64,000 nt of DNA from Rubrivivax sp. (lineage in GTDB: Bacteria; Pseudomonadota; Gammaproteobacteria; Burkholderiales; Burkholderiaceae_C): contig JAHECD010000012.1 of NCBI GenBank assembly GCA_024641945.1, forward strand, positions 1 to 64,000. Direction: 5' to 3'. Below are positions 3,335 through 64,000 of this stretch, in pieces. A model generated the notes under the pieces. It did not search any database and was not told the origin of the DNA. It worked only from the letters and a program-made list of their open reading frames with translations. Every line of letters starts with the position of its first letter. The stretch's first letter is position 1. The position numbers and the translations under genes were made by a program.

Positions 3335-3781
3335 ATGAGTGACCGCCTGCTCGGCGCGGTGTGCGTGGTCCTGGCCGCAGGCATGGCCTGGGCCGGCAAG
3401 GATTACGCCGCCCCGATTTCCTATGAACCGGTGGGCCCGCGCGCCTTCCCGCTGCTGCTGTCGGGCTTGCTCGCCGCCGGCGGCGCCTGGCTGGTGCTGC
3501 GGCCCGGCCCGCATGCCAGCGGCCTCGGCCTGGCGTCGATGAAGACGCTCGGGCAGGCGGCGGCCGCGGTGCTCGCCTATGCGCTGCTGTTCGAGACCCT
3601 GGGATTCACCGTGGCCACGGCCCTGATGGCGGTGCCGGTCGGCATGGCCTTTGGCGGACGCTGGACGCAGGCGCTGGCCGGCGGTGTCGGGCTCGGGCTC
3701 ATGCTGTACCTGATGTTCGACAAGCTGCTCGACGTGGTGCTGCCCACCGGCGTGCTGTCGTTTCTGTTCGGGGGGCGCTAG
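3335..3781 (+). CDS. tctB: Tripartite tricarboxylate transporter small membrane subunit TctB
   Basis: Protein of 148 aa with four predicted membrane helices, the size and topology expected for TctB (about 145 aa). A GAGGAG ribosome-binding site lies about 10 bases upstream of the ATG. Its stop codon is immediately followed by the tctA start, so the two are translationally linked. It forms the membrane complex with TctA that accepts substrate from TctC and uses an ion gradient. Confidence 0.88.
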   Translation: MSDRLLGAVCVVLAAGMAWAGKDYAAPISYEPVGPRAFPLLLSGLLAAGGAWLVLRPGPHASGLGLASMKTLGQAAAAVLAYALLFETLGFTVATALMAVPVGMAFGGRWTQALAGGVGLGLMLYLMFDKLLDVVLPTGVLSFLFGGR

Positions 3782-5296
3782 ATGGACACCCTCCAATATC
3801 TGATGAGCGGGTTCGCTGTCGCGCTGACGCCGGCCAACCTCGGGGTCGCCGCACTCGGCGCGCTGATCGGCACCGTGGTCGGCATGCTGCCGGGCCTGGG
3901 GCCGATCAACGGCGTCGCGATCCTGATGCCGCTCGCGTTCGCGCTGAAGCTGCCACCCGAGACGGCGCTGATCCTGCTCGCCGCGGTCTACATGGGCTGC
4001 GAATTCGGCGGCCGCATCTCGTCGATCCTGCTCAACGTGCCGGGCGATGCCGGCGCCATCATGACCGCGATGGACGGCTACCCGATGGCGCGCCAGGGCC
4101 TGGGCGGCGTGGCGCTGTCGATCTCCGCCTGGAGCTCGTTCATCGGCTCGCTGATCGCCACCATCGGCATCGTGCTGTTCGCGCCGTTGCTGGCCCGCTG
4201 GGCGCTGGCCTTCGGGCCGGCCGAGTACTTCGCACTGATGTGCTTCGCCTTCGCCTGCATCACGGGGCTGATGGGCGACGCGCCGATGAAGGCGGCGCTG
4301 GCCGCGGTGCTGGGCCTGTCGCTGTCGACCATCGGGCTGGACTCCAACTCGGGCGTCTACCGCTTCACCGGCGGCGACGTGCACCTGTCGGACGGCATCC
4401 AGTTCATCGTCGTCGTCATCGGCGTGTTCTCGATCAGCGAGATCCTGCTGATGCTCGAGCAGCACCACAGCAGCGAAGGCATCATCAAGACCACCGGCCG
4501 CGCGATGTTCAACATGAAGGAACTGGCGCTGACGTGGTGGGGTACGGTGCGCTCGGGCCTGGTGGGCTTCGTCGTCGGCGTGCTGCCGGGCGCGGGCGCC
4601 ACGATTGCGAGCGCGATGACGTACTCGATGGAAAAGCGCATCGCCGGCCCCAGCGGCCGCTTCGGGGAAGGCGACGTCCGTGGCGTGACGGCGCCTGAGG
4701 CCGCCAACAACGCCTCGGCCGCCGGTTCCTTCGTGCCGATGCTGACGCTCGGCGTGCCGGGCTCGGGCACGACGGCGGTGATGGTGGGGGCGCTGTCGCT
4801 CTACAACATCACGCCGGGGCCGGCGCTGTTCACGCAGAACCCGACGCTGGTGTGGGGCCTGATCGCGTCGCTGTTCGTCGCCAACGTGATGCTGCTGTTC
4901 ATCAACATCCCGCTGGTCGGCGTGTTTACCAAGGTGCTGCAGATGCCCAACTGGGTGCTGGTGCCGGGCATCCTGGCGGTCAGCGCGGTCGGTGTGTACT
5001 CCGTGCACGCCACCACGTTCGACCTGCTGCTGATGACGGGCTTCGGCCTCGTCGGCTTCCTGCTGCGCAAGGCCGGCGTGCCGATGGCGCCGCTGATCCT
5101 GGGCTTCGTGCTCGGCGACATGATGGAGCAGAACCTGCGCCGCGCGCTGTCGATCACGAACGGCGAGCCGGGCATCCTTCTCGAGAGCGCGATCAGCAAG
5201 GGCCTGTGGTTCGCCGCTGCGGCGATGGTCATCGTGCCCCCGCTGCTGCGCCTGCTGGCACGCCGCCGCGCCGCCGCGCCTGCGGCTGCCCACTGA
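3782..5296 (+). CDS. tctA: Tripartite tricarboxylate transporter large membrane subunit TctA
   Basis: Protein of 504 aa, the normal TctA length, with about 10-12 hydrophobic segments. Family motifs are visible in two halves: GTVVGMLPGLGPINGVA near the N-terminus and VGVLPGAGATIASAM near residue 270, followed by EAANNASAAGSFVPMLTLGVPGSG (the last shown here in part as NNASAAGSFVPML). These glycine-rich loops form the translocation path. It begins directly at the tctB stop codon, and the two citrate-lyase-like genes follow after 21 bases in the same orientation. Confidence 0.93.
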   Translation: MDTLQYLMSGFAVALTPANLGVAALGALIGTVVGMLPGLGPINGVAILMPLAFALKLPPETALILLAAVYMGCEFGGRISSILLNVPGDAGAIMTAMDGYPMARQGLGGVALSISAWSSFIGSLIATIGIVLFAPLLARWALAFGPAEYFALMCFAFACITGLMGDAPMKAALAAVLGLSLSTIGLDSNSGVYRFTGGDVHLSDGIQFIVVVIGVFSISEILLMLEQHHSSEGIIKTTGRAMFNMKELALTWWGTVRSGLVGFVVGVLPGAGATIASAMTYSMEKRIAGPSGRFGEGDVRGVTAPEAANNASAAGSFVPMLTLGVPGSGTTAVMVGALSLYNITPGPALFTQNPTLVWGLIASLFVANVMLLFINIPLVGVFTKVLQMPNWVLVPGILAVSAVGVYSVHATTFDLLLMTGFGLVGFLLRKAGVPMAPLILGFVLGDMMEQNLRRALSITNGEPGILLESAISKGLWFAAAAMVIVPPLLRLLARRRAAAPAAAH

Positions 5297-5317
5297 AACC
5301 CACCGGAGAACCCGACC

Positions 5318-6598
5318 ATGCAGATCACCGGACTCTTGTACGGCGCACCGCTGTTGAAGCTGGTGGACTTCCCCTGCGCCGAGGTGCTGGGGCCCGACGC
5401 CTCGGAAGACCTCATCGCGGACCTGATCCGGCGCCACGGCCAGGTCTTCGTCAAGCCGCTGTTCCGCGGCGGCGTCGGCAAGAAGGGCAAGTCCGGGCTG
5501 ATCGGCCGCGCGACCGACCTGGCGCGCGCGCTGGCCGAGAAGGAGCGCCTGTATTTCGCCGAGCACCGGCACGGCAATGCCACCGCCAAGGCCAATGGCG
5601 TCACCTTCGAAGGCGGCGTGCCGGCCGAGTACGAGGTGTACTTCTCGATCACCGACGACACACGCTACCGCGCGCCGACGATGACGCTGACGCACCGCGG
5701 CGGCGTCGAGATCGAGGAACTCGACAAGACCGAGATTGCCACCGTGCCGTTCGACGCGCTGACCGGGCTGAAGGCCTTCGTGGTGGCGAACGCGCTGACC
5801 GACATCGGCGCGCCGCGCGAGATCATCTCGCCGCTCGTGCAGCACCTGCCCAAGCTGTGGGAGCTGATGCACCACTACGGCATGACGACGCTGGAGCTGA
5901 ACCCGATCCGCATGCGGGCCGACAGCGGCGGCCGGCTGACGCCGGTGGCCTGCGACTTCAAGTGCGGCTTCGACCGCGACGACCCGCGCGTGGCACGCCT
6001 GGGCCTGCCCGGGCACCTGTTCGCGGCCGACGTCGGCGCGTTCGAGCAGGAGGTGAACCAGTTGCGCACGCACCAGGGCCAGTCCGACGTGTTCGTCATC
6101 AACGAACGCGGCACGATCCTCGCCCCGACGTTCGGCGGCGGCGCCAACAGCCTGGTCACCGAAGTGCTGGGCGAGGCGGCGAGCATCAGCTCGGACTTCG
6201 GCGGCAACCCGCCCTACGAGAAGATGAAGCAGGTCGCGCGCATCTGCTACCGCCACTTCCTGAAGCAGTCCAACGTGCTGTTCGTGATCGGCGGCAAGTC
6301 CAACAACACCGACATCCACGAGACGCTGCGCGCCATCGGCGACGCGCTGCGCGAGCACTTCTCGACCGCCGGGCCGACGCCGCTGTATGTGGTGGTCGGG
6401 CGCGGCGGGCCGAACCTCGTGCGGGGGTTCGGCGCGCTGGCCGACACCTGCGACGCACTCGGCCTGCCCTACCGCTTCTTCGGCTTCGACAGCGCCATCA
6501 GCGAGGTCGTGAACCACGCCAAGAAGATCGACGACTGGATGCGCGCCGGCGGCCGGGCCGCCATCGCGCGCAGGCTCGGCATCGCCGACGCCGCCTGA
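5318..6598 (+). CDS. ATP-citrate-lyase-like small subunit (ATP-grasp plus citrate-binding-type domain)
   Basis: Protein of 426 aa, close to the size of bacterial AclB. The N-terminal half is an ATP-grasp domain: VFVKPLFRGGVGKKGKSGL (nucleotide-binding strand/loop), the acidic pair in YEVYFSITDD and LELNPIRM (metal-binding strand). The C-terminal half, with NERGTILAPTFGGGANSLV and GGNPPYEKM, resembles the citrate-binding domain of ATP-citrate lyase. With the next gene it would activate a carboxylate with ATP and CoA. It lies in an apparent operon with tctCBA. A divergent succinyl-CoA-synthetase beta-type role is the main alternative. Confidence 0.75.
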   Translation: MQITGLLYGAPLLKLVDFPCAEVLGPDASEDLIADLIRRHGQVFVKPLFRGGVGKKGKSGLIGRATDLARALAEKERLYFAEHRHGNATAKANGVTFEGGVPAEYEVYFSITDDTRYRAPTMTLTHRGGVEIEELDKTEIATVPFDALTGLKAFVVANALTDIGAPREIISPLVQHLPKLWELMHHYGMTTLELNPIRMRADSGGRLTPVACDFKCGFDRDDPRVARLGLPGHLFAADVGAFEQEVNQLRTHQGQSDVFVINERGTILAPTFGGGANSLVTEVLGEAASISSDFGGNPPYEKMKQVARICYRHFLKQSNVLFVIGGKSNNTDIHETLRAIGDALREHFSTAGPTPLYVVVGRGGPNLVRGFGALADTCDALGLPYRFFGFDSAISEVVNHAKKIDDWMRAGGRAAIARRLGIADAA

Positions 6599-6608
6599 GG
6601 AGACGACC

Positions 6609-9320
6609 ATGCACGCCCAAGGCATCACCGGATTTCCCTACTACCTCGGCATCGGCTCGCTCGCCGACATGGCCTCGCGTGGCGACCGCGTCTGCGTGCT
6701 CAACATCCTCGGCGGCGAGTCGCGCCAGGTGACGCCGACCAGCCACGTGTTCTCTGGCGGCAACGTCGTCTTCGGCACGTCGCCGGGGCGTGGCGGCCAG
6801 GCGCTGAAGACAGCGCTCGGCGACATCCCGGTATTCAACAACGTGCGCGAAGGGCTGGACGCCGGCCATGCCTTCGACACCGGCGTCGTCTACCTGCCGC
6901 CGTCGGGCGTGCGCGACGGCGTCGCCGAGCTGATTCGCGTGAACCCGGGGCTGAAGAAGATCGTCATCATCACGGAGAAGGTCGCCGTGCACGACGCACG
7001 CGAGATTCGCGCCATGGCGCAGGGCGCCGGCGTCGACGTGATCGGCGGCAACTGCCTGGGCGTGGCCGATTCCTGGAGCCGCACGCGCATCGGCGGCGCG
7101 CTCGGCGGTGACCACCCGGAGGAGACCCTGCTGCAGGGCACGGTGGCCATCTTCTCCAATTCGGGCGGTTTCACGACCACCATCGCGCAATACCTGTCGA
7201 CCGAAGGCTGGGGGACGACGACCCTGGTGTCCTCGGGCAAGGACGTCTACATCCACTATGGCGCACGCGACTTCGCGCATGCGCTGCGCCACGACGGCCG
7301 CTCGCGCGCCGCGGTCCTGTACTGCGAGCCGGGGGGCTACTACGAACGCGACATCGACTGGAGCAAGCCGGTCGTCGCCTGCGTCGTCGGGCGCTGGAAG
7401 TCGAAGCTCACGCGCGCCGTCGGCCACGCCGGTGCGATGGCCGGTTCGGGCGACAGCGCGCAGGACAAGGAAGATTGGTTCCTTCAGGCCTTCGGCGTCG
7501 ATGCGATCTATACGCCCGACAACCCGGTCGTTTCGGAGAAGGGAGCGGTGGTCACCAACATCGCCCACATCCCGGCGGCGCTGACCGCCGTGATGGCGCG
7601 CAGCGGCGCGGCGCCCGACTTCGCACCCCGCGGCAGCCTGACGCTCAAGCCTTGGTTGAGCAACGACCAGGGGCTGGAACTGCCGCCGGAGCTGGCGCTG
7701 CCGACGGTCACCGCCCCCGAGCCGTACGCCACCCAGCTGGCCGGTCTGGCGCGTCAGGTCGGCGCGGTGATCGCGCGCCAGAACATGAAGGACAAGTCCG
7801 GCGCTTCGGTGATGGACGCGAAGACGCAAGTCACCTCGGTGCACGGGCATTCGGTGCTCGACCTCGCGCTGCAGCCGCTGCAGGCGAATTTCGCGTTGCC
7901 GCTGGTGCACGAGGCGGCGGGCCCGAACGACCGCGCGATGCTCGACATCGCGGTGGCCGCCGAGGTGAACCTGGTCGGCGACCCGATCCTCGTCGCCGCC
8001 GACGCGGCGCGCGAGGCCGGCAACTCGCCCAACACCGTGATGGCCGCGGCCGTTGCCATCGTCGGCCCGAAGCGCGTCGAGCGTGCACTGGCCTGCACGC
8101 GGGCGCTGATCGACCTGTTCGCCGGCTCGGGCCTGAAGGAAGGCCACCACGTCGATTTCGACAGCACCGGCATCTGCGTCGACGCCGCGACACGGGCGCT
8201 GTTCCTGGCCCGCGACGACGAGCGCGACGACCCGCGCGCCGAGGCCATGCTGGCGGCCGTGCGCGCACGGGGCGCGCGGTCGGTATTCCTCGACTTCCTC
8301 GGCCGGCTGGACGGCACGCTGTCGCGCGACGCCGTGCTGGCGGCGATCGCGACGACGATCGCGTGGGGCCCGCTGGTGCGCAAGCGCATCAGCCGCCTGA
8401 CCGCCGAGACGCTGCCGTGGTACCTGCGCCTGTACGGTGTGATGGTCGGCTCGACGATCCCCGGCCACCGCCACCAGAGCGGTTCGCTGTGCGGCATCTC
8501 GCGCGCCGAGCGCTTCGGCAGCTGGACGATGGCAGACCTGTGTTACCTGGCGATGACCGGCAAGAAGCCGACGCCGGAGCAGGCGCTGCCGCTGCAGATC
8601 CTCGTCGGGCTGCTGATCTCGAACGGGCCGGGCGCGATCTCGCTGCAAGGGGCCAAGGGCGCGGTATCGGCCGACGGGCCGCAGACCCCGGGCCGGGTGC
8701 AGATCAACAAGGCCATGGTCGGGTTTCTGACCCACACCGGGTACAGCCATGGCGGCAACGGCTTCGAAGGCATGGCCTTCCTGCTCGAACAGTTCAAGGA
8801 TACGGGCCTGCTCGACCCCACCGACCCGAACCACGGACTCGACCTGAAGGGGATGGCCACCCGATTCGCGCGTGCGTACAAGGCCGAAAAGCGCGCCGCC
8901 CGTGAAGACGGCACCGAGGTGCGGGCGTTGCCCGGCGTGCACCACCCGGTGTTCAAGGGCAAGCCGGTGAACCACGACCCGCGCGAGCGGTTCATCGCGC
9001 GGTTCATGGCCGAACGTGGCAGCACCAATGTCTTCCACGCCTTCTACCGTGAGCTGGTGCAGGCCCTGTACGACGTGGGCGCCACGCCCTACGTGTTTTG
9101 CGTCAATGTCGACGCCGTGATCGCCGCGCTGCTGCTGTCGCTGCTGTGGAACGACCATCGCAGCGGTGCGCTGTCGGTGCGCGACCTCGAAAACGCCGCG
9201 TTCACCGTGTTCCTGTACGGCCGCATGATCGGCGCGGCGGCCGAGATCGACGACCACCTGAACCGCGGACGCAACATGGACACCCGCACGCCCGAGGCGG
9301 CCTGCGCCTACGTGCTCTGA
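6609..9320 (+). CDS. ATP-citrate-lyase-like large subunit (CoA-binding/ligase plus divergent citrate-synthase-like region)
   Basis: Protein of 903 aa, starting 10 bases after the small-subunit gene. Residues 1-340 are a CoA-binding and CoA-ligase module of the succinyl-CoA-synthetase/ACL superfamily; GHAGA places the phospho-histidine at H273. The remaining roughly 555 residues end in a citrate-synthase-like region, with YSHGGNGFEGM and an NHDPRER motif (D790) matching catalytic positions. At the place of the ACL/citrate synthase DHG histidine the protein reads SNGPG, with N672. It is about 300 residues longer than typical AclA. The context supports cleavage of an imported citrate-like acid to acetyl-CoA plus oxaloacetate, but the substitution leaves substrate and activity uncertain. 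Confidence 0.7.
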   Translation: MHAQGITGFPYYLGIGSLADMASRGDRVCVLNILGGESRQVTPTSHVFSGGNVVFGTSPGRGGQALKTALGDIPVFNNVREGLDAGHAFDTGVVYLPPSGVRDGVAELIRVNPGLKKIVIITEKVAVHDAREIRAMAQGAGVDVIGGNCLGVADSWSRTRIGGALGGDHPEETLLQGTVAIFSNSGGFTTTIAQYLSTEGWGTTTLVSSGKDVYIHYGARDFAHALRHDGRSRAAVLYCEPGGYYERDIDWSKPVVACVVGRWKSKLTRAVGHAGAMAGSGDSAQDKEDWFLQAFGVDAIYTPDNPVVSEKGAVVTNIAHIPAALTAVMARSGAAPDFAPRGSLTLKPWLSNDQGLELPPELALPTVTAPEPYATQLAGLARQVGAVIARQNMKDKSGASVMDAKTQVTSVHGHSVLDLALQPLQANFALPLVHEAAGPNDRAMLDIAVAAEVNLVGDPILVAADAAREAGNSPNTVMAAAVAIVGPKRVERALACTRALIDLFAGSGLKEGHHVDFDSTGICVDAATRALFLARDDERDDPRAEAMLAAVRARGARSVFLDFLGRLDGTLSRDAVLAAIATTIAWGPLVRKRISRLTAETLPWYLRLYGVMVGSTIPGHRHQSGSLCGISRAERFGSWTMADLCYLAMTGKKPTPEQALPLQILVGLLISNGPGAISLQGAKGAVSADGPQTPGRVQINKAMVGFLTHTGYSHGGNGFEGMAFLLEQFKDTGLLDPTDPNHGLDLKGMATRFARAYKAEKRAAREDGTEVRALPGVHHPVFKGKPVNHDPRERFIARFMAERGSTNVFHAFYRELVQALYDVGATPYVFCVNVDAVIAALLLSLLWNDHRSGALSVRDLENAAFTVFLYGRMIGAAAEIDDHLNRGRNMDTRTPEAACAYVL

Positions 9321-9370
9321 GCGTGGGCCGGGGCAGGACCCGGCGCTGCGCGGGTGGCGCTTCCTCGCCG

Positions 9371-9397
9371 TCCGCTGTGCGGCACTCTGCTTTTTTT
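9371..9397 (+). terminator. Weak candidate terminator after the citrate-lyase-like operon
   Basis: A short CCGC-TGT-GCGG hairpin (9372-9382) is followed after eight bases by a seven-T run (9391-9397). The hairpin is short and the gap unusual, so this is only a candidate. Confidence 0.25.
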
Positions 9398-9516
9398 GTG
9401 CCTGCCAACCTGCACGACAGCCGAGGTAGGCGGCCTTCGGCTGCGGGCTGCCACCAGCGGCCGCCAGAAGTGGTCGACGGCCACAGCAAACCCGCTGCAA
9501 GGGACTGGCCAGGGCA

Positions 9517-9811
9517 TTTCGTCGTGCTCGGCGCTGTCCTCCACGTGCAGATGCCGGTCGGACACGACCGACTGCATCCGTTTCGTCAGTCGGTCGGCGA
9601 AAGCCTGACCGTCGGCGATGTCGTCGAAAGCGCCCGGGTCGCTTTGCAAGGCCTCCGCGACCTTTGCGCCAGCGGCGGCGTCGACGCAGTGGTCCCGGAT
9701 CTGAACGGCCATGCGAGCGATGACGCGTGTGCGCGTCGCACCATCAAGGGCCTGGGCATGCGCCACATGGAGCAGCGACGCGAGTGCGCGGGTCACAAGA
9801 AGACCGCGCAT
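9517..9811 (-). pseudogene. Remnant of an S41-peptidase/IRBP-like protein, N-terminus only
   Basis: Reading from 9811 downward, a signal-peptide-like start (MRGLLVTRALASLLHVAHA) is followed by about 70 residues that resemble the helical N-terminal domain of interphotoreceptor-retinoid-binding/S41 proteins, including VVSDRHLHVEDS. After about residue 98 the frame continues into arginine-rich, non-protein-like sequence and no protease domain follows. The S41 core with its catalytic Ser/Lys is absent. I read it as a truncated, decayed gene. The stretch 9321-9516 holds no gene I can support. Confidence 0.5.
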
Positions 9812-10000
9812 GGGGGCCTTCGTGGGCGCAGCGGCCGCAACGGCGATACCGATCCAGTTTACCGGCGGGTGTTGCCAATGCCTTGCGGCCCAGGCGACCG
9901 GCCGAAGTCCGAACTTAGGAGGAGTCAGCTTCTCACCAACCGCCGACGGCAGTTTTCGTTCGACCGACCGCGGGTCGATACGAGAGTACTTGGCAGGCGA

Positions 10001-10435
10001 TCAAGCCACCACGCGCCGCTTCAGCCAGCGCATCAACGCACCCAGCAGCGGCAGCTTCTCGTACAGCTCCTCCGCCGCGTCCCAATAGTCGCGGTGCAGT
10101 TCGACACGTCCATCGGCGGCAAAACGCAGGTGAGTGCCGCCGCGTACGCAGAGGCTCTGGGCGTGCCGGCCGCGCAGGCGGAAGGTGAAATCCCAGGTCA
10201 GGAAGGCCTGCGCGCCTTCCGCCATCGCATCGCGCACCACGAAGCGCGGTGCATCGAGGGTCTCGAACATGTGGCGAAAGATCCGCTCGATGGCCGCCTG
10301 GCCCTGTGCGTCGTTGAATGGATCCTTGAATCGCGCGTCGGGCGCGTAGACGGTATCGAGTCGGTCGAGGTCCGCGGGCGCGAGGTGCTCGAAGAAGTCG
10401 ATCACGCGTTGCACACGCGGGTCGGCGTGCGGCAT
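10001..10435 (-). CDS. NTF2-like/SnoaL-family protein
   Basis: Protein of 144 aa starting MPHADPRVQRVIDFFEHLAP. It has the NTF2-like alpha+beta pattern: an N-terminal helix, YAPDARFKDPFND, a central helix (IERIFRHMFETL), and strands GTHLRFAADGRVELHRDYWD. Such domains act as small binding pockets or isomerases, and the substrate cannot be deduced. The start lies 2 bases after the SDR stop, and it is the last gene of the minus-strand lipid operon. The C-terminus is basic (RWLKRRVVA). Confidence 0.75.
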   Translation of the reverse strand: MPHADPRVQRVIDFFEHLAPADLDRLDTVYAPDARFKDPFNDAQGQAAIERIFRHMFETLDAPRFVVRDAMAEGAQAFLTWDFTFRLRGRHAQSLCVRGGTHLRFAADGRVELHRDYWDAAEELYEKLPLLGALMRWLKRRVVA

Positions 10436-10437
10436 GT

Positions 10438-11223
10438 TCAGGTGCCCGTCGAGCGCCGGATCGCGGCGAAATACAGCGTGTCGCTCAGGTGGCGCAGCGC
10501 CTTGAGCGACAGCGTGAAGCGTTTTGGGAAGTGGATCTCGAAGCGGCCCTTGGCCCAGCCGCGCAACATTTCCTCGGCCGCTTCCTCCGGCGTGATGAGT
10601 GCGGGCATGTGGAAATCGTTGCCCGCCGTCAGCGGCGTCTCCACGAAGCCGGGATTGACCACCGACACGCCCAGCCCGCGCGGCTCGAGGTCGAGGTACA
10701 GCGTCTCGGCCAGGTTGATGAGGGCCGCCTTGGTGGGCCCGTACGCCAGCGACTGCGGCAGCCCGCGGTAGCCGGCCACGCTGGAGACGAGGCTCAGGTG
10801 GCCGCCCTGCCCGGCGGCGGCCTGCTGGAGCAACTGGGGCAGCACAGCGTCGAGCAGCACCAGCGCGCCTTCGTAGTTGACCTTGACGTGGCGCAGCGCC
10901 ACGTCGAGGTCGAAGGCGGTGGCTCTCATCGCGGTGTAGGTGCCCGCGCAATACACCACGAGGTCGAGCCGGCCGTCGCGCGCGACGATCTGCTCGACGG
11001 CTGCGCGCATGGCGGCGCGGTCGGTGGCATCGAGCGCGATCGCATGGGCGCCGGGGTGTGCCTGCACGAACTCCTGCAGCGTGGCCTGCGTACGTGCCGA
11101 CACCACCACGCGCGCGCCGGCCGCATGCAGACGGGAAGCCGCAGCGCGGCCGATGCCGGTGGAGGCGCCGACGAGCCAGACGGTGCGACCGTGCCAGTCA
11201 TCGATCCGGGGGTTCAACGCCAT
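10438..11223 (-). CDS. Short-chain dehydrogenase/reductase
   Basis: Classical SDR of 261 aa. The Rossmann glycine motif is GASTGIGRAAA near the N-terminus, then the CAG motif (VVYCAGTY), catalytic Ser in SLVSSVAGYRG and the YGPTKAA active site (Tyr/Lys), followed by VVNPGFVETP. Arg residues in the second strand region (SARTQ) suggest NADP(H). It sits second to last in the operon with Cfa-type and flavoprotein genes, so a lipid or acyl substrate is plausible but not shown. Confidence 0.85.
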   Translation of the reverse strand: MALNPRIDDWHGRTVWLVGASTGIGRAAASRLHAAGARVVVSARTQATLQEFVQAHPGAHAIALDATDRAAMRAAVEQIVARDGRLDLVVYCAGTYTAMRATAFDLDVALRHVKVNYEGALVLLDAVLPQLLQQAAAGQGGHLSLVSSVAGYRGLPQSLAYGPTKAALINLAETLYLDLEPRGLGVSVVNPGFVETPLTAGNDFHMPALITPEEAAEEMLRGWAKGRFEIHFPKRFTLSLKALRHLSDTLYFAAIRRSTGT

Positions 11224-11230
11224 GTGCGGC

Positions 11231-11815
11231 CTACTTTCGCTGGAAGGCGAGCGTGACCTCGCCGAGGTGGATGCCGAACTTGCTCATCTGTGCCTTGTTG
11301 AGCATCACGCGGTCGTCCATCAGGTACATCCAGTCGTCGAACTGGACTTCGATGTCCTTGCCGTCGACCGGCAGCCGCAGCGTGTAGCGCCAGTTGAGCG
11401 CGTTGCCAGCGGCGTGGCCTTCGGCCGTGCCGACCACGTCGCCGGCGCGTCCGAGATAGCGGCCGCCGCCCAGGTCCGTGAGGCGCCAGACACGGTGCTC
11501 CGTCTTGCCGTCGCTGTATGTGAAGCGCTCGTCCAGCGTGCCATCGTTGCCGTCCCAGGTGCCGGTCATGGCCACGGTGAAGCGACGCTGCACCTTGCCC
11601 GCGCGGTCGGTGAACAGGCCGTGCGCCGTGAGTTCGCCGTTGAAATAGGTCTTCAGGTCGAGCACCGGCTTCTCGGCCGCGTAGTCGGCCGGCACCGGTG
11701 CGCTGGCGCATCCGGCGCCCAGCAGGGCGACGGCCATCAGGCACGCGGTCAGCGCGTGGCGCCGGGCGGTCGCACCCGGCCGATGCGCGGCGGGTGTCAA
11801 GCAGGTCGGTTTCAT
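11231..11815 (-). CDS. DUF3833 family lipoprotein
   Basis: Protein of 194 aa with a lipoprotein signal: a hydrophobic stretch ending in LLGAGCASAP, where the Cys is the acylated residue. The mature part matches the DUF3833 pattern (YFNGELTAHGLFTDRAGKVQ, FTYSDGKTEHRVWRL, the closing GEVTLAFQRK). It is probably anchored to the outer or inner membrane on the periplasmic side. Function is unknown, but it recurs in operons with Cfa, DUF1365 and COG2907 flavoproteins. The start codon overlaps the MFS stop by 4 bases, so translation is coupled. Confidence 0.8.
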   Translation of the reverse strand: MKPTCLTPAAHRPGATARRHALTACLMAVALLGAGCASAPVPADYAAEKPVLDLKTYFNGELTAHGLFTDRAGKVQRRFTVAMTGTWDGNDGTLDERFTYSDGKTEHRVWRLTDLGGGRYLGRAGDVVGTAEGHAAGNALNWRYTLRLPVDGKDIEVQFDDWMYLMDDRVMLNKAQMSKFGIHLGEVTLAFQRK

Positions 11816-58794: not shown

Positions 58795-59241
58795 TCAACT
58801 GCGCGCGGGGCCGCGTGGCGTGAGGCGCCCGTCGGGCGCGCCGTCGACCTCATGGTCGATCTCGAAGGCGATCTGTGTGCACACCGCGCGGCACAGCGTG
58901 GCGGCGCGCTCGCTCTCGATGCGGTAGTAGATCTGGGTGGCGTCGCGCCGCTTGCCCAGCACGCCGGCGCGGTACAGGGTGGACAGATGCTGGCTCATGT
59001 TCGGCTGCGTCGTCTCGATGTCTCCGAGCAGTTGTGACACGTTCTTTTCGCCGTGGCACAGCGAGCTGATGATCTTCAGGCGGATCGGCGTGGACAACAG
59101 GCTGAACAATTCCGCCGCCGTGGAGAAGACCTCATCGGACTTGATCGACTCGTCGCTCGGCTCGACGGGCGTGGGAGCCGCAGGCCCGGGCTTGGCCGCA
59201 GTGTCGGATTTCATGATTTGGCGCCGCATGGTGGTTCGCAT
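58795..59241 (-). CDS. ArsR-family repressor, possibly sulfur/redox-responsive
   Basis: Winged-helix regulator of 148 aa. A disordered N-terminus (1-36) precedes the ArsR domain: LFSLLSTPIRLKIISSL, recognition helix TTQPNMSQHLSTLYRAGVL and wing GKRRDATQIYYRIE. Cysteines C62 (SSLCHGEK) and C117/C121 (TLCRAVC) lie in helices where persulfide-sensing BigR/SqrR-type repressors carry their Cys pair. No classical metal-site ELCVCDL box is seen. It is last in a minus-strand cluster of sulfur/redox genes and is likely their regulator. Start at 59241 chosen for the GAGAAGA site upstream. Confidence 0.8.
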   Translation of the reverse strand: MRTTMRRQIMKSDTAAKPGPAAPTPVEPSDESIKSDEVFSTAAELFSLLSTPIRLKIISSLCHGEKNVSQLLGDIETTQPNMSQHLSTLYRAGVLGKRRDATQIYYRIESERAATLCRAVCTQIAFEIDHEVDGAPDGRLTPRGPARS

Positions 59242-59261
59242 TCTTCTCGTGCAACGAGCGA

Positions 59262-59615
59262 TTACTTCTTTGGCGGGGCTGCCGGTGCCGGTGTGGCGCC
59301 GAAGTGGTAATGGTCGCGCTGGAGCACGGCGGCCACGGCGGTGACCTCTTCCGGGAAGAGGCCCAGGTTGAGCTCGGTGCTGCAATAGTCGACCATGCCG
59401 CGCAGCGCGCCGGGGGTGTTGATGCGACCGGCCGGCCGGTAGATCGCCGACCCGTCACCGCCCACCTTTCGCGCGTGGCATTCCGCGCACTTGCTTTCCT
59501 TGAACAGGCGTTCGCCGAGCGCCAGGTCGGCGCCGCGGAAGATCTCGGGCACGGGCTGCGCCAGGGCGGCGCTTGAGAGCGCCAGGGCGGCAAGGGACAA
59601 GGGTAAGCGCATCAT
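59262..59615 (-). CDS. Periplasmic c-type cytochrome
   Basis: Protein of 117 aa with a signal peptide (MMRLPLSLAALALSSAALA) and a single haem site CAECHA. A candidate distal Met is in LRGMVDYC. The Pro/Ala/Lys C-terminus (ATPAPAAPPKK) is disordered. It lies between a thioredoxin-like gene and the ArsR regulator, and probably accepts electrons from periplasmic sulfur-compound oxidation. Confidence 0.82.
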   Translation of the reverse strand: MMRLPLSLAALALSSAALAQPVPEIFRGADLALGERLFKESKCAECHARKVGGDGSAIYRPAGRINTPGALRGMVDYCSTELNLGLFPEEVTAVAAVLQRDHYHFGATPAPAAPPKK

Positions 59616-59630
59616 GGTCGGACCTCCGCG

Positions 59631-60125
59631 TCAGCCTGCGAGACCCGCCAATTCAAGCACATCGGCCTCGAACATCTCGCCCGGGATCACCTGCTTCAGA
59701 TGCCCGGCGCGGTCGACCGTCACCGTGAGCGGGATCATGCGCCGTGGCGACAGCGCCGCCGCCATCGGTTCGGCGTCGAGCGTGACGGCGAACCGGTGGC
59801 CGGCAGCCGTCATGTAGCGCTGCACGGCCTGCACATCGCGCTCGCGCGCCACGGTCAACAGTTGCAGCGGCAGCCCCGCCACGGCCCCCTGCAGCCGCGA
59901 CACGTGCACCAGGTGGCGGCGGCAGAACGGGCAGGTCGTCGACCAGAACACCACGACGACCGCCTGGCCCGCCGCATCGGCGGGGCCCCAATGCGTGCCG
60001 TCGAGCAGCGTCACCTCCGGCCACACGACCCGCTCTCCCGGCGCCGGCGCGGCCCACGCGGTGGCCAGCGCACCCGGTGCCGAGGCAAGCAGTGCCACGG
60101 CCTGGCGGCGGTTGGGGCGTTTCAT
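59631..60125 (-). CDS. Thioredoxin-like (TlpA/redoxin) periplasmic protein
   Basis: Protein of 164 aa with a Sec/Tat-like N-terminus (MKRPNRRQAVALLASAPGALATAWA) and a thioredoxin fold. The active-site CxxC is in FWSTTCPFCRRH and the cis-Pro in RRMIPLTVTV. It probably acts as a periplasmic reductase, like SoxW/TlpA proteins that keep sulfur-oxidation components reduced. The start overlaps the metallo-hydrolase stop by 4 bases. Confidence 0.85.
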   Translation of the reverse strand: MKRPNRRQAVALLASAPGALATAWAAPAPGERVVWPEVTLLDGTHWGPADAAGQAVVVVFWSTTCPFCRRHLVHVSRLQGAVAGLPLQLLTVARERDVQAVQRYMTAAGHRFAVTLDAEPMAAALSPRRMIPLTVTVDRAGHLKQVIPGEMFEADVLELAGLAG

Positions 60126-61081
60126 TTGGCGGACTGCTCCATCAGCAGGTACGTGTTGTACGCGTTGATGCGGTTGGCCGCACGGAACAACGGCAGCCTC
60201 TCGAAGCGCGACCAGTCGGTGTGCGCATAGGCCTCCTCGAAGGGGTCCATGTTGCGTGCCGCCTCGCCCATGCTCTGGCGCAGGAAGACCAGGTAGTCGT
60301 GCGTGAGCTGCAGGTCCTCGCGCGCGCTCGTGGAGACCGGCCCGTGTCCGGGCACGATGACCTGCGCGTCGAAGGCGAGCAGGGTCCTGAGCGACTCGAT
60401 CCAGTGCCCGCTGTCGGCCTGTCCGACGAACGGGATCCGCGCACGAAAGACGATGTCGCCCGCCAGCAGCAGTTTGCGGTCCGGCAGGTAGACCACCAGG
60501 TCCTCGGGGGTGTGGGCCGGGCCGGCAGGCCGCAGGAGGAAGTCGACGCCCCCGACCGTGAGGGTGGTGGGCCCGTCGATCCAGCGGTCGGCCGGCACGA
60601 GGCGGGTGTGCTCGTCGATCCACGGGAAGAGTTCCTCGCGGCTGGCCTTCAGGCGCAGCGCGGCGGTTTCGGAGTTGAGGTACAGCTGGCCGCCCCGGTG
60701 CGCGATGACCGTCGCCCCGGCGTCCTTGAACACCTGGAGGCCGTAGATGTGATCGGCGTGGTAGTGGCTCACGATCACGTGGGTCACCGGCTTGGGCGTG
60801 ATGCGCGCGATCTCGGCTTGCAGTTCCCTGGCCAGTTCGGGCGAGCCCAGGGCGTCGAAGAGCACCACGCCGTCGCGTGTCACCACGAAGGCCGCATTGG
60901 AGATGAAGTTGCGATTCGCCGCCGATCCGAGCGCCGACAGGCCCTGCACCATCCACGTGTCGGGTGCGACCTGCACCGCGTGCGGACGGTCGGTCTGCGC
61001 ATTCACTGGCGGCGCCGCCGCGACGACGCAGCCGACCCATGCAGCCAGTGCTGCCCGGCGCAAGCATTTGAACATCAGCAT
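60122..61081 (-). CDS. Periplasmic metallo-beta-lactamase-fold hydrolase (SoxH-like)
   Basis: Protein of 319 aa with a signal peptide (to about AAPPVNA). Zinc ligands: H106/H108/D110/H111 in SHYHADH, His in GPAHTPEDLVVYLP, Asp in LLLAGDIVF and His in IVPGHGP. The sequence style matches SoxH and quinoprotein-relay zinc hydrolases found beside sulfur oxidation or PQQ genes. A thiol or persulfide ester substrate is plausible. First gene of the minus-strand cluster; ATG at 61075 is an alternative start. Confidence 0.82.
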   Translation of the reverse strand: MLMFKCLRRAALAAWVGCVVAAAPPVNAQTDRPHAVQVAPDTWMVQGLSALGSAANRNFISNAAFVVTRDGVVLFDALGSPELARELQAEIARITPKPVTHVIVSHYHADHIYGLQVFKDAGATVIAHRGGQLYLNSETAALRLKASREELFPWIDEHTRLVPADRWIDGPTTLTVGGVDFLLRPAGPAHTPEDLVVYLPDRKLLLAGDIVFRARIPFVGQADSGHWIESLRTLLAFDAQVIVPGHGPVSTSAREDLQLTHDYLVFLRQSMGEAARNMDPFEEAYAHTDWSRFERLPLFRAANRINAYNTYLLMEQSAK

Positions 61082-61238: not shown

Positions 61239-61568
61239 ATGAAAACAGCCTTGTGCCAGGCGACGCTCCTGGCCACCCTGCTGGCCACCGCCGGCGCGAC
61301 CGGCGCACAGGATGCACGCCAGGCGCGAAGCCTGGCCGCCACCTGTGCCACCTGCCACGGGATCGACGGTCATGCCCGCGCGGACATGAAGCCGCTTGCC
61401 GGCATGCCGGCCGACAAGATCGCCGGGCTGGTGGCGGATTTCCGCAGCGGTGCGCGGCCGGCCACGCTGATGCACCAGATCGCCAAGGGTTATACCGACG
61501 CGCAGATCCGGCTCGTCGCCGCCTATTTCGCCGCGCAGCCGGCGCTGCCGGGAAGGGACGCACCATGA
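61239..61568 (+). CDS. c-type cytochrome subunit of sulfide dehydrogenase (FccA-like)
   Basis: Periplasmic monohaem cytochrome of 109 aa: signal peptide (to about GATGA), haem site CATCHG, and Met in MHQIAKGYTD as likely sixth ligand. It overlaps the flavoprotein gene by 4 bases, the arrangement of flavocytochrome c sulfide dehydrogenase (FccAB/SoxEF). AGGAGA precedes the ATG. It would pass electrons from sulfide oxidation to the respiratory chain. Confidence 0.85.
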   Translation: MKTALCQATLLATLLATAGATGAQDARQARSLAATCATCHGIDGHARADMKPLAGMPADKIAGLVADFRSGARPATLMHQIAKGYTDAQIRLVAAYFAAQPALPGRDAP

Positions 61569-62842
61569 CACAACGGCTCCTTTCCCGGCGGCACGTGCTG
61601 CGCACAGGCGCCGCCGTGGCGGCCGCGTCGCTGGGAGGCTGCGCGGGTCTCGGCCGCACGCCATCGGGCGGGCGCGTGGTGGTCGTCGGCGGCGGATTCG
61701 GCGGGGCCACGGCGGCGCGTTATCTGCGCCTCTGGGGCGGCGACATCGATGTCACGCTGGTCGAGCGCAACGCCGAATTCGTCTCGTGCCCGATGAGCAA
61801 CCTCGTGCTTGGCGGCTACCGCTCGATGGCCGGCATCACGCGCGGTTACGGCGGCCTGGCCGCGGCCGGCGTGCGGGTCGTGCAGGGGGAGGTCGTCGCC
61901 ATCGACGGCGTGGCGCGCAAGGTCCGCCTTGCCGAAGGCACCGAACTGGCCTACGACCGGCTGGTCGTCGCGCCGGGCATCGACTTCATCACCGGCCCGA
62001 TCGGCGGCCTGCAGGCAGCGCTCGACAGCGGCCGGGCCGTGCACGCTTGGAAGGCCGGACCGCAGACGATCGCTCTGCGCCGGCAGATCGAGGGCATGCC
62101 CGATGGCGGCGTCGTTGCGCTGTCGATTCCGCCCACGCCCTACCGGTGCCCGCCCGCCCCGTACGAGCGTGCATGCATGGTGGCCAGCTACCTGAAGGCG
62201 GCCAAACCGCGCTCCAAGCTGCTGCTGCTCGACGCCAACCCGGAGATCCAGTCGAAGAAGGCCCTCTTCGAGCGCGCCTTCGAGGAGCACTACAAGGGGC
62301 TGCTGGAATACCGCCCGAATACCGAACTGCGCGAGGTGTCGGGCGGCGTGCTGAAGTTCGATTTCGAGGACGTGAAGGCGGACGTGCTGAACGTCGTGCC
62401 GCCGCAGCGCGCTGCCGACATCGCGCGCACCGCCGGGCTCGTCAACATCAACGCGCGCTGGGCCGGTGTGCACTGGCTGACGCTGGAGTCGACGGCCGTG
62501 CCCGGCATCCACGTGCTCGGCGACGCCGCGTTTCCAGGGCCGGCCATGCCCAAGTCGGGGCACATGGCCAACCAGCACGGCAAGGTGGCCGCCGCGGCCA
62601 TCATCCAGTTGTTGAAGGGCGAGCCCGTGAACGACGCGCCCATGGCGCTGAATACCTGCTACAGCTTCGTCACCCCGACCGAGGCGGTCCACGTGGCATC
62701 GGTGCACGAATACGACCCTGTGGAGAAGACGTTCAAGGCCGTGCACGGCGCAGGCGGCCTCTCGGCTGCTGCGAGCGTGGCCGAAGGCCGTTACGCGCTC
62801 AGCTGGGCCGACAACATCTGGGCCGATACGCTGGGGCTCTGA
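61565..62842 (+). CDS. fccB: Flavocytochrome c sulfide dehydrogenase flavoprotein subunit (FccB/SoxF-like)
   Basis: Periplasmic flavoprotein of 425 aa. A twin-arginine signal (LSRRHVLRTGA) indicates export after folding. The FAD fold is VVVVGGGFGGATAARYLR; NAEFVSCPMSNLVLGG follows with a Cys at the flavin-attachment position. Cysteines in PYRCPPAPYERACM and LNTCYSFV correspond to the redox-active pair of the family. The C-terminal FCSD domain is present. It oxidises sulfide to elemental or poly-sulfur with the cytochrome subunit encoded just before. Confidence 0.9.
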   Translation: MTQRLLSRRHVLRTGAAVAAASLGGCAGLGRTPSGGRVVVVGGGFGGATAARYLRLWGGDIDVTLVERNAEFVSCPMSNLVLGGYRSMAGITRGYGGLAAAGVRVVQGEVVAIDGVARKVRLAEGTELAYDRLVVAPGIDFITGPIGGLQAALDSGRAVHAWKAGPQTIALRRQIEGMPDGGVVALSIPPTPYRCPPAPYERACMVASYLKAAKPRSKLLLLDANPEIQSKKALFERAFEEHYKGLLEYRPNTELREVSGGVLKFDFEDVKADVLNVVPPQRAADIARTAGLVNINARWAGVHWLTLESTAVPGIHVLGDAAFPGPAMPKSGHMANQHGKVAAAAIIQLLKGEPVNDAPMALNTCYSFVTPTEAVHVASVHEYDPVEKTFKAVHGAGGLSAAASVAEGRYALSWADNIWADTLGL

Positions 62843-62901: not shown

Positions 62902-63621
62902 TTACAACCGCACGTACGCCCAACCTTGCTGCATGCGCAGCACGATCTCGTCGAGCGCCGAGGTCGCGACCCGCGTGCCGGGCAGAAGCCGAACCTCGAC
63001 ACCGGCATCCTGCAATTTCTGCAGGGTCTGCCCGCACGCCACCAACGCCAGTGGCGGGTACGCCGTGCGCAGGGACTCGAGACGCTGCGCGTACGGCGAG
63101 TCGGAGGCCCGCAGCAGGTCCAGGCCCGGCCCGTTGGCAACGATCTCGATCGCCACCGTGCGCCCCGATCCGCGGGTGGCGTCGATCAGCCCCTGCGTGC
63201 GCTCGAGCGCGGCCTGCCATTGCCGGGGGTCGTTGTGGCTGACATGCACCACGACGTGGCTGGTCTCGCTGGCAGGCGCCTGCGTGTCGACGCGGGCCGA
63301 CGTCCATGCCGTGGGCCCGACGGCGCCCTCGCGCGCCATCCACCCCGCGACCAGGCCGCCGGCAAAGAGCACCAGCGCCGCGGCGGCCAGGCGTGCACGC
63401 GGGCGGGGCGCAGCCGAATGTTGCGGCGGGGTCGGCGCCACGCCGGCATACGCATGCTGCACCAGTTCCTTGGCAAGGCGCAGCTGGCCGATGCGATCGC
63501 GCAGCGCGGGCTCGGCGGACCATTGCTCGAGCAGCGCCGCGGCGTCGGCGGGCGACAACTCGCCATCGACCAGTGCATTCAGTTGCTCGTCGGACCAGCG
63601 GTGCGGCCGTTCGGTCGTCAT
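62902..63621 (-). CDS. Transmembrane anti-sigma factor fused to a DsrE-like periplasmic domain
   Basis: Protein of 239 aa in three parts: a cytoplasmic N-terminus (about 1-60, WSDEQLNALVDGELSPADAA, typical of anti-sigma factors, no zinc motif), one membrane helix (about 77-95) and a periplasmic domain (about 122-239). That domain has the DsrE/DsrF pattern: HVVVHVSHNDPRQWQAALE, IEIVANGPGLDLL, VACGQTLQKL with C196, and the closing VLRMQQGWAYVRL. The start overlaps the sigma-factor stop by 4 bases. It probably releases the sigma factor when a sulfur species modifies C196; this mechanism is inferred. Confidence 0.75.
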   Translation of the reverse strand: MTTERPHRWSDEQLNALVDGELSPADAAALLEQWSAEPALRDRIGQLRLAKELVQHAYAGVAPTPPQHSAAPRPRARLAAAALVLFAGGLVAGWMAREGAVGPTAWTSARVDTQAPASETSHVVVHVSHNDPRQWQAALERTQGLIDATRGSGRTVAIEIVANGPGLDLLRASDSPYAQRLESLRTAYPPLALVACGQTLQKLQDAGVEVRLLPGTRVATSALDEIVLRMQQGWAYVRL

Positions 63622-64000
63622 TTCACCCGCCTCAATGGGGTGGCGTCGGCGCGTTCGCTGGCCAGCGGGGGCGATAGCGCCTGGCGCAAGGCCGCACGCC
63701 CTCGGCAAAGGCGGCTCATCACCGTGCCCATCGGGATCGCCAGGATTTCAGCCGCCTCGGCGTAGCTGCATTCCTCGAGGTCGACCAACGCGAGCACCTC
63801 GCGTTGGCCGAGCGGCAGCTGCTCGATCGCACTGCGCACACGCGTTGCGAGCTCGGTCCGGCTGGCCGCGTGCTCGGGGGTGTGGTCGACCGCGAGCAGG
63901 CGCTCCTCGATGCTGTCGATGTCTTCGGTCGGCCGCTGCGCGCGCAGGTGGTCGCGCCAGCAATTGACCAGGATGCCGTACAGCCAGCTGCGCATGCGCG
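63618..64000 (-). CDS. ECF RNA polymerase sigma factor (partial, N-terminus beyond the window edge)
   Basis: The visible 127 or so residues contain the end of region 2 (RSWLYGILVNCWRDHLR) and region 4 (AIEQLPLGQREVLALVDLEECSYAEAAEILAIPMGTVMSRLCRGR, cited in part). The frame stays open to the right edge, and the first visible Met is internal to region 2, so the start lies outside. It is co-translated with the anti-sigma gene. It is placed next to sulfide-oxidation genes, which may be its targets. Confidence 0.88.
   Translation of the reverse strand, partial: RMRSWLYGILVNCWRDHLRAQRPTEDIDSIEERLLAVDHTPEHAASRTELATRVRSAIEQLPLGQREVLALVDLEECSYAEAAEILAIPMGTVMSRLCRGRAALRQALSPPLASERADATPLRRVK

Follow-up and report, generated by a model that had tools for sequence, protein, structure and literature searches.

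The end of a 64,000-nucleotide stretch of a Rubrivivax sp. contig (hereafter, the whole stretch is referred to as the window) raises the question of what a gene joining an anti-sigma-like domain to a DsrE-type, i.e., sulfur-handling, fold might be doing directly beside an ECF sigma factor gene. The initial annotation had proposed that its product is a membrane switch, sensing reduced sulfur outside of the cell and freeing the sigma factor inside, next to a sulfide dehydrogenase; as detailed below, this interpretation is partly supported. The question is of some general relevance, given that the sensing of external sulfur by regulators is called poorly understood in the consulted part of a 2024 paper on Sox regulation (PMC11582611).

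Architecture of the fusion protein

The presence of an anti-sigma/DsrE fusion gene at 62902–63621 was confirmed, and its start overlaps the stop of the ECF sigma factor gene by 4 bases. The features relevant for the arguments that follow are:

62902..63621, minus strand: anti-sigma/DsrE fusion protein P0002, whole gene, 239 aa (confirmed in the sequence and by homologues)
63442..63621, minus strand: N-terminal anti-sigma-like helical domain, approximately residues 1–60, three predicted helices, presumed cytoplasmic
63325..63396, minus strand: single hydrophobic helix, residues 76–99, presumed membrane segment (helix in the model, hydrophobicity by eye)
62905..63267, minus strand: DsrE-fold domain, residues 119–239, presumed periplasmic (predicted structure and fold matches)
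63034..63036, minus strand: codon of the invariant cysteine C196 (conservation among fusions and DsrE-only relatives)
63618..64000, minus strand: C-terminal part of the ECF sigma factor gene (186 aa), which runs to C164:64178 outside the window
C164:64187-64213, minus strand, beyond the window end: promoter motif toward the sigma operon
C164:64256-64282, plus strand, beyond the window end: promoter motif toward the divergent DsrE gene
L003:6339-6776 (= C164:64338-64775), plus strand, beyond the window: divergent DsrE gene, 145 aa

A structure search with the N-terminal domain placed anti-sigma domains (those of ChrR, DdvA, RslA, RsiW and MucA, as well as a SigK partner, among them) in 16 of the 17 best Foldseek rows, at weak E-values of 0.89–4.9, and the Pfam matches to zf-HC2 and RseA_N were both below cut-off, with no match for P0002 in NCBIfam. 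The sigma gene lies directly upstream in 66 of the 68 fusion units, the two exceptions (L037 and L044) apparently being the same contig fetched twice, where the sigma gene is ~350 bases upstream. The reading of P0002 as an anti-sigma-like protein adjoining an ECF sigma gene is supported, the matches of the N-terminal domain themselves being weak. Two loci, L116 (genome G523, 8572–11505) and L065 (G407), have two tandem sigma/fusion pairs, which suggests duplicated sensors.

RseA, MucA, RsiW, RslA and RskA are membrane anti-sigma factors, with which P0002 shares the gene order, the one hydrophobic helix (lying between its two domains and flanked on both sides by linkers of low confidence in the structure model) and the helical N-terminal domain, whereas their known sensory domains are other than DsrE. 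The hallmark of the zinc-binding redox anti-sigma (ZAS) proteins, a cytoplasmic H-x3-C-x2-C zinc motif, is absent from P0002, whose sole cysteine is C196.

The DsrE-fold domain and its cysteine

The predicted structure of residues 119–239, when compared with known folds, has the DsrE fold, as the initial annotation had expected of this domain. C196 ends a strand (residues 191–196) in the model, aligns with a cysteine of MTH1491 and is kept in 66/66 fusions, as is its equivalent in 74/74 DsrE-only relatives, which supports it as an invariant cysteine; the initial annotation had singled out this residue. As for Pfam PF02635, P0002 has no match at an E-value of 10, such matches were obtained for nine of the 18 aligned relatives (at E-values of up to 0.1), and the DsrE-like protein of L205 had none. 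Known DsrE/TusD/YchN/MTH1491 members are soluble, and several of them are sulfurtransferases; the domain of P0002 has the fold in common with them, but differs in being the tethered part of a regulator.

The DsrE domain might, of course, be merely structural or anchoring, with the sensing carried out by regulated proteolysis of a linker or by the cytoplasmic domain. The linkers flanking the helix, modelled with low confidence, would suit such a view, as would the cysteine found at the position of G45 in 58 of the 66 homologues; however, the window protein itself has no N-terminal cysteine, and C196, G166 and E159 are invariant over the 18 aligned fusions and DsrE-only relatives. This explanation seems very improbable.

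The promoter motif and the divergent DsrE gene

A motif of the form GGAATA-N15/16-CGTC(T/A/G) was found upstream of the sigma gene in 41 of the 48 units (L103, apparently the same contig as L037, having been left out of this count), as compared to 1 of 2400 dinucleotide shuffles, with the remaining 7/48 units having no motif before sigma. An ECF-type promoter motif thus precedes the operon, and autoregulation is predicted. In the 5.0 Mb genome to which the window belongs, the N16/17 form with CGTCT occurs twice, both occurrences being the divergent sites of this very locus (one occurrence in the reversed control), and no motif within one mismatch is present in the window, just past the end of which both of these sites lie. 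The N15/16 search of the same genome gave two more matches, in C167 and C213; both N15 matches are within open reading frames and were taken as chance rather than real sites.

Across the sigma gene, separated by a short intergenic region, lies the divergent gene for a 145-aa protein, which carries a signal peptide (signal peptides and several gene names having been assigned by eye), is 33% identical to the anti-sigma C-terminal domain (4.9e-8) and matches PF02635 at 3.4e-4, just under the curated cut-off. A DsrE gene is divergent and no more than 1.5 kb away in 35 of the 48 units, and a divergent copy of the motif is present in 24/48 units and in 20 of those 35.

Such an arrangement invites an explanation whereby the sensor reads a protein rather than a small molecule, i.e., its DsrE domain would associate with the secreted DsrE or some other sulfur carrier in a complex, and a sulfur-loaded or absent partner would set the switch. 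The frequency of a DsrE paralogue within 1.5 kb, often sharing the motif, is in line with this, as are the structure matches of the P0002 domain, which include DsrEFH (2hy5) and TusBCD (2d1p), hetero-oligomers according to their titles, and the fixed differences between the fusions and the DsrE-only relatives at residues 163 (N in 62/66 vs. Y/F in 68/74) and 126 (H in 60/66 vs. Q in 65/74). Yet 13 of the 48 units lack a divergent DsrE gene over those 1.5 kb, and we consider this explanation rather unlikely; it overlaps with the relay considered best below, and is therefore not a clean alternative to it. H126 and N163 of the sensor domains are a possible signature of a sensing role, as far as alignments can tell.

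Motif sites and the putative regulon in related genomes

The sox genes of the window's own genome are spread over several contigs, and no sox gene was seen under the motif there: three SoxY-like loci gave no motif, nor does the soxB contig contain one at up to one mismatch, although the head of the sox operon is unseen in this genome because that contig begins inside the operon. In 35 chosen fusion genomes (these, along with the 40 regions examined, being the author's choice), 140 exact CGTCT sites were found, as compared to 45 in the reversed control; 46 of these are at most 2.5 kb upstream of a fusion and 94 elsewhere, and chance is expected to give about half of the latter (94 vs. 45 in the control). 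Forty-three of the 94 out-of-locus sites, picked by eye for likeness to the in-locus motif, were examined.

Seven of these sites in six genomes (G464, G905, G378 with two, G533, G419 and G630) head sox operons or soxB, the sox genes there having been named through similarity to representatives, on which NCBIfam confirms SoxA, B, Y and Z, as well as SoxX at the G464 site. Four further sites (L172, L173, L191 and L201) head DsrE genes as identified by profile, and single ones head a PF02635 protein (L183), a Sulf_transp protein (L198), a PF03601 protein (L182) and a further sigma-like gene (L193), while, by eye, some head binding-protein-like genes and three (L178, L187 and L194) precede thioredoxin-like ones; many of the 43, in turn, head non-sulfur genes or nothing recognisable. 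By hand, a motif no more than ~2.6 kb upstream of the listed soxB on the same strand was found in 5 of the 17 class genomes with the fusion, whereas 35 chosen out of the 86 soxB genomes without a counted fusion had no motif near the listed soxB and 36 motif sites altogether vs. 37 in the control. That the regulon in related genomes is sulfur-related is thus supported at the level of predicted sites, the motif heading sox, soxB, DsrE and sulfur-transport genes, and the possibility of a regulon unrelated to sulfur, against which the initial proposal was to be judged, does not describe what was found in the relatives.

The same sites bear on whether this might be a general anti-sigma factor for periplasmic thiol oxidation or envelope stress, with an indirect link to sulfur, given that this kind of stress is met by sulfur oxidizers. 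Oxidation of a single exposed cysteine is indeed conceivable, and the thioredoxin-like genes named by eye would fit; sox, soxB, DsrE and sulfur-transport genes being headed by the motif nevertheless speaks against it, as does the soxB content of the fusion genomes described below, and such a role seems quite improbable.

Several observations concern the genes around the motif sites and fusions. In two genomes (L178 and L187), the motif stands directly before a large thioredoxin-domain-like protein, as judged by eye. A solute-binding-type protein, likewise assigned by eye, is encoded directly 3' of the fusion in L038 (4903–5931), L039 (2010–3014), L041 (6858–7895) and L104 (8595–9632, minus strand), and a relative of it heads the motif site at L179.

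Sulfide dehydrogenase as a neighbour

The initial annotation had drawn its link to sulfur from the sulfide dehydrogenase genes next door, and had called for a survey of the fusion with FccAB. These genes, fccAB, do occupy 61239–62842 on the plus strand, with FCSD domains at 9e-38 and 2.2e-22, and their being next door would favour a sulfide switch for FccAB. However, fccAB and the anti-sigma gene are convergent, no motif within one mismatch is present in the window, and no relatives of FccA or FccB (phmmer, E-value of 1e-6) were found in the other 47 loci (3.2–20 kb, one a duplicate), i.e., FccAB is near the fusion in 1/48 loci only and was rejected as a conserved partner. This version of the switch thus appears highly improbable, and the conserved link, as seen in the predicted sites and gene content, is with Sox plus DsrE genes, not with FccAB.

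A second sulfur-type block (58795–61081, minus strand) is divergent from fccAB and comprises genes for an ArsR-type repressor (BigR match below cut-off), a SoxH-like metallohydrolase (match below cut-off), and a small CxxCH protein and a TlpA-like protein (by eye); fccAB may be under the control of the ArsR-type protein.

Distribution of the fusion and its co-occurrence with soxB

Nine loci were obtained when named genomes were scanned, of which seven are near full-length and belong to MAGs named Rubrivivax, Leptothrix, Xanthomonadales (two), Porticoccaceae, Geobacteraceae and Gammaproteobacteria. The fusion in L039, a contig labelled Geobacteraceae, seems near to the one carried by a Xanthomonadales MAG (L040), a likeness that may be due to either transfer or misbinning. 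In the class, 136 of the 369 genomes were matched by profile, as were 117 of the 399 in the order, many through the DsrE part alone; among the matches listed, a near full-length fusion (E < 1e-29, counted by hand, with partial or split matches such as those in G388, G520, G555, G560 and G359 left out) is present in 65/369 class genomes of 40 families. Within the family to which the window belongs, matches were obtained for 62 of 299 genomes, mostly through the DsrE part and some through the anti-sigma part only, and none of the 29 own-family loci besides that of the window gave a full-length profile match. No relative of the fusion was found in viral contigs, and the seven plasmid records matched, all from Azospirillum, have the DsrE part only.

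The co-occurrence with soxB (TIGR04486), evaluated for the 369 class genomes with the order genomes left out, is close to complete, as soxB is present in 64 of the 65 fusion genomes (among the matches listed) vs. 86 of the 304 others (Fisher p 1.9e-28), G353 being the fusion genome without a soxB match. Counted by family, with the total of 182 families taken from genome labels, soxB is found in 39/40 of those with the fusion (among the matches listed) vs. 38/142 (Fisher p 4.8e-17), relatedness being accounted for in these tests through the family count only. The soxB threshold of E < 1e-110 gave 150 genomes, 148 of which exceed the curated cut-off (G397 being a fragment at a contig end), and weaker SoxB matches were not counted because 10 of the 14 control genomes give them too, none above the cut-off.

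Closer to the fusion, within flanks of up to 10 kb in 46 loci (L103 and L085 left out), a SoxB relative is present in 11 and a porin-like gene, the representative of which matches PF07396, in 24, the latter mostly divergent, 1.9–2.9 kb upstream and beside the DsrE gene. The sigma, fusion and sox genes follow one another on one strand in L131 (G998, ~5997–9978, minus) and L119 (G453, 3620–9121, minus), and a DsbC-like gene (by eye) just upstream in L131 has its own motif.

Proposed mechanism and relation to known systems

With a probability of roughly 0.6, we favour the reading that a membrane anti-sigma factor holds its ECF sigma factor until the outward DsrE domain detects reduced sulfur, upon which sigma-driven transcription would follow. 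The basis for this, as far as sequences and predicted structures go, is the co-encoded sigma gene, the one hydrophobic helix, the DsrE fold with its invariant cysteine, the motif before sigma and at the sox/DsrE genes of relatives, and the near-constant co-occurrence with soxB. In such a scheme, the N-terminal domain would bind its own sigma factor and keep it in the cytoplasm, with the DsrE domain presumably facing the periplasm, where C196 would take up sulfane sulfur from polysulfide, from thiosulfate-derived sulfur or from a carrier such as the secreted DsrE; sulfur loading, rather than unloading, would then free sigma, be it directly or via proteolysis. Transcription by the freed sigma would cover its own operon and the gene of the secreted DsrE protein (which may be a carrier or a feedback partner), to which several relatives would add the Sox genes for thiosulfate oxidation. 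More tentatively, and at somewhat less than even odds, the chain might be a new class of transmembrane sulfur sensor, a periplasmic relay spread over ~40 sampled families of one class of bacteria, with sulfane sulfur handed from the secreted DsrE to the tethered DsrE cysteine, leading then to the release of the ECF sigma and, finally, to Sox being turned on.

Parts of such a scheme have counterparts. In the parts of the report consulted, the Arcobacter butzleri ECF sigma-2/anti-sigma-2 pair activates the sox operon and is likewise an ECF sigma/anti-sigma pair tied to sox, with a broad energy-metabolism regulon; "DsrE" occurs 0 times in the main text (PMC3445524). Sinorhizobium meliloti RpoE1/RpoE4 (ECF26), according to the portions consulted, control the sulfite dehydrogenase SorT, are activated on the metabolism of thiosulfate or taurine and, as here, are sulfur-tied ECF sigmas regulating few genes, including their own operons; unlike for P0002, those portions describe no DsrE sensor (PMC3511301). 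SoxR/SqrR/BigR, as presented in the consulted sections, are ArsR-type repressors with the SoxT membrane protein as a signal unit, and have the sulfur-responsive control of sox genes in common with the proposed switch, which, in contrast, would pair a sigma factor with one membrane protein that itself carries a sulfur-type domain on the outside (PMC10451225, PMC11582611). In the open-licence literature, among the matches listed, no anti-sigma factor bearing a DsrE domain was found, and "DsrE" is absent from the main text of PMC7406223.

Judging by their genes, many sulfur-oxidizing bacteria thus have a membrane protein resembling a switch by which a dedicated transcription factor would be turned on and off. 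DsrE would be a new kind of sensory domain added to ECF signalling, and an outward sulfur-handling fold on an anti-sigma factor would be a direct and testable answer to how external sulfur is sensed in many sulfur oxidizers, with the motif providing a precise handle for finding the regulon. The sensing step itself is still only proposed; if it is true, the cell would switch on its sulfur-burning genes upon encountering external reduced sulfur, and, as the fusion family is widespread and conserved, a result obtained in one culturable relative would speak for many.
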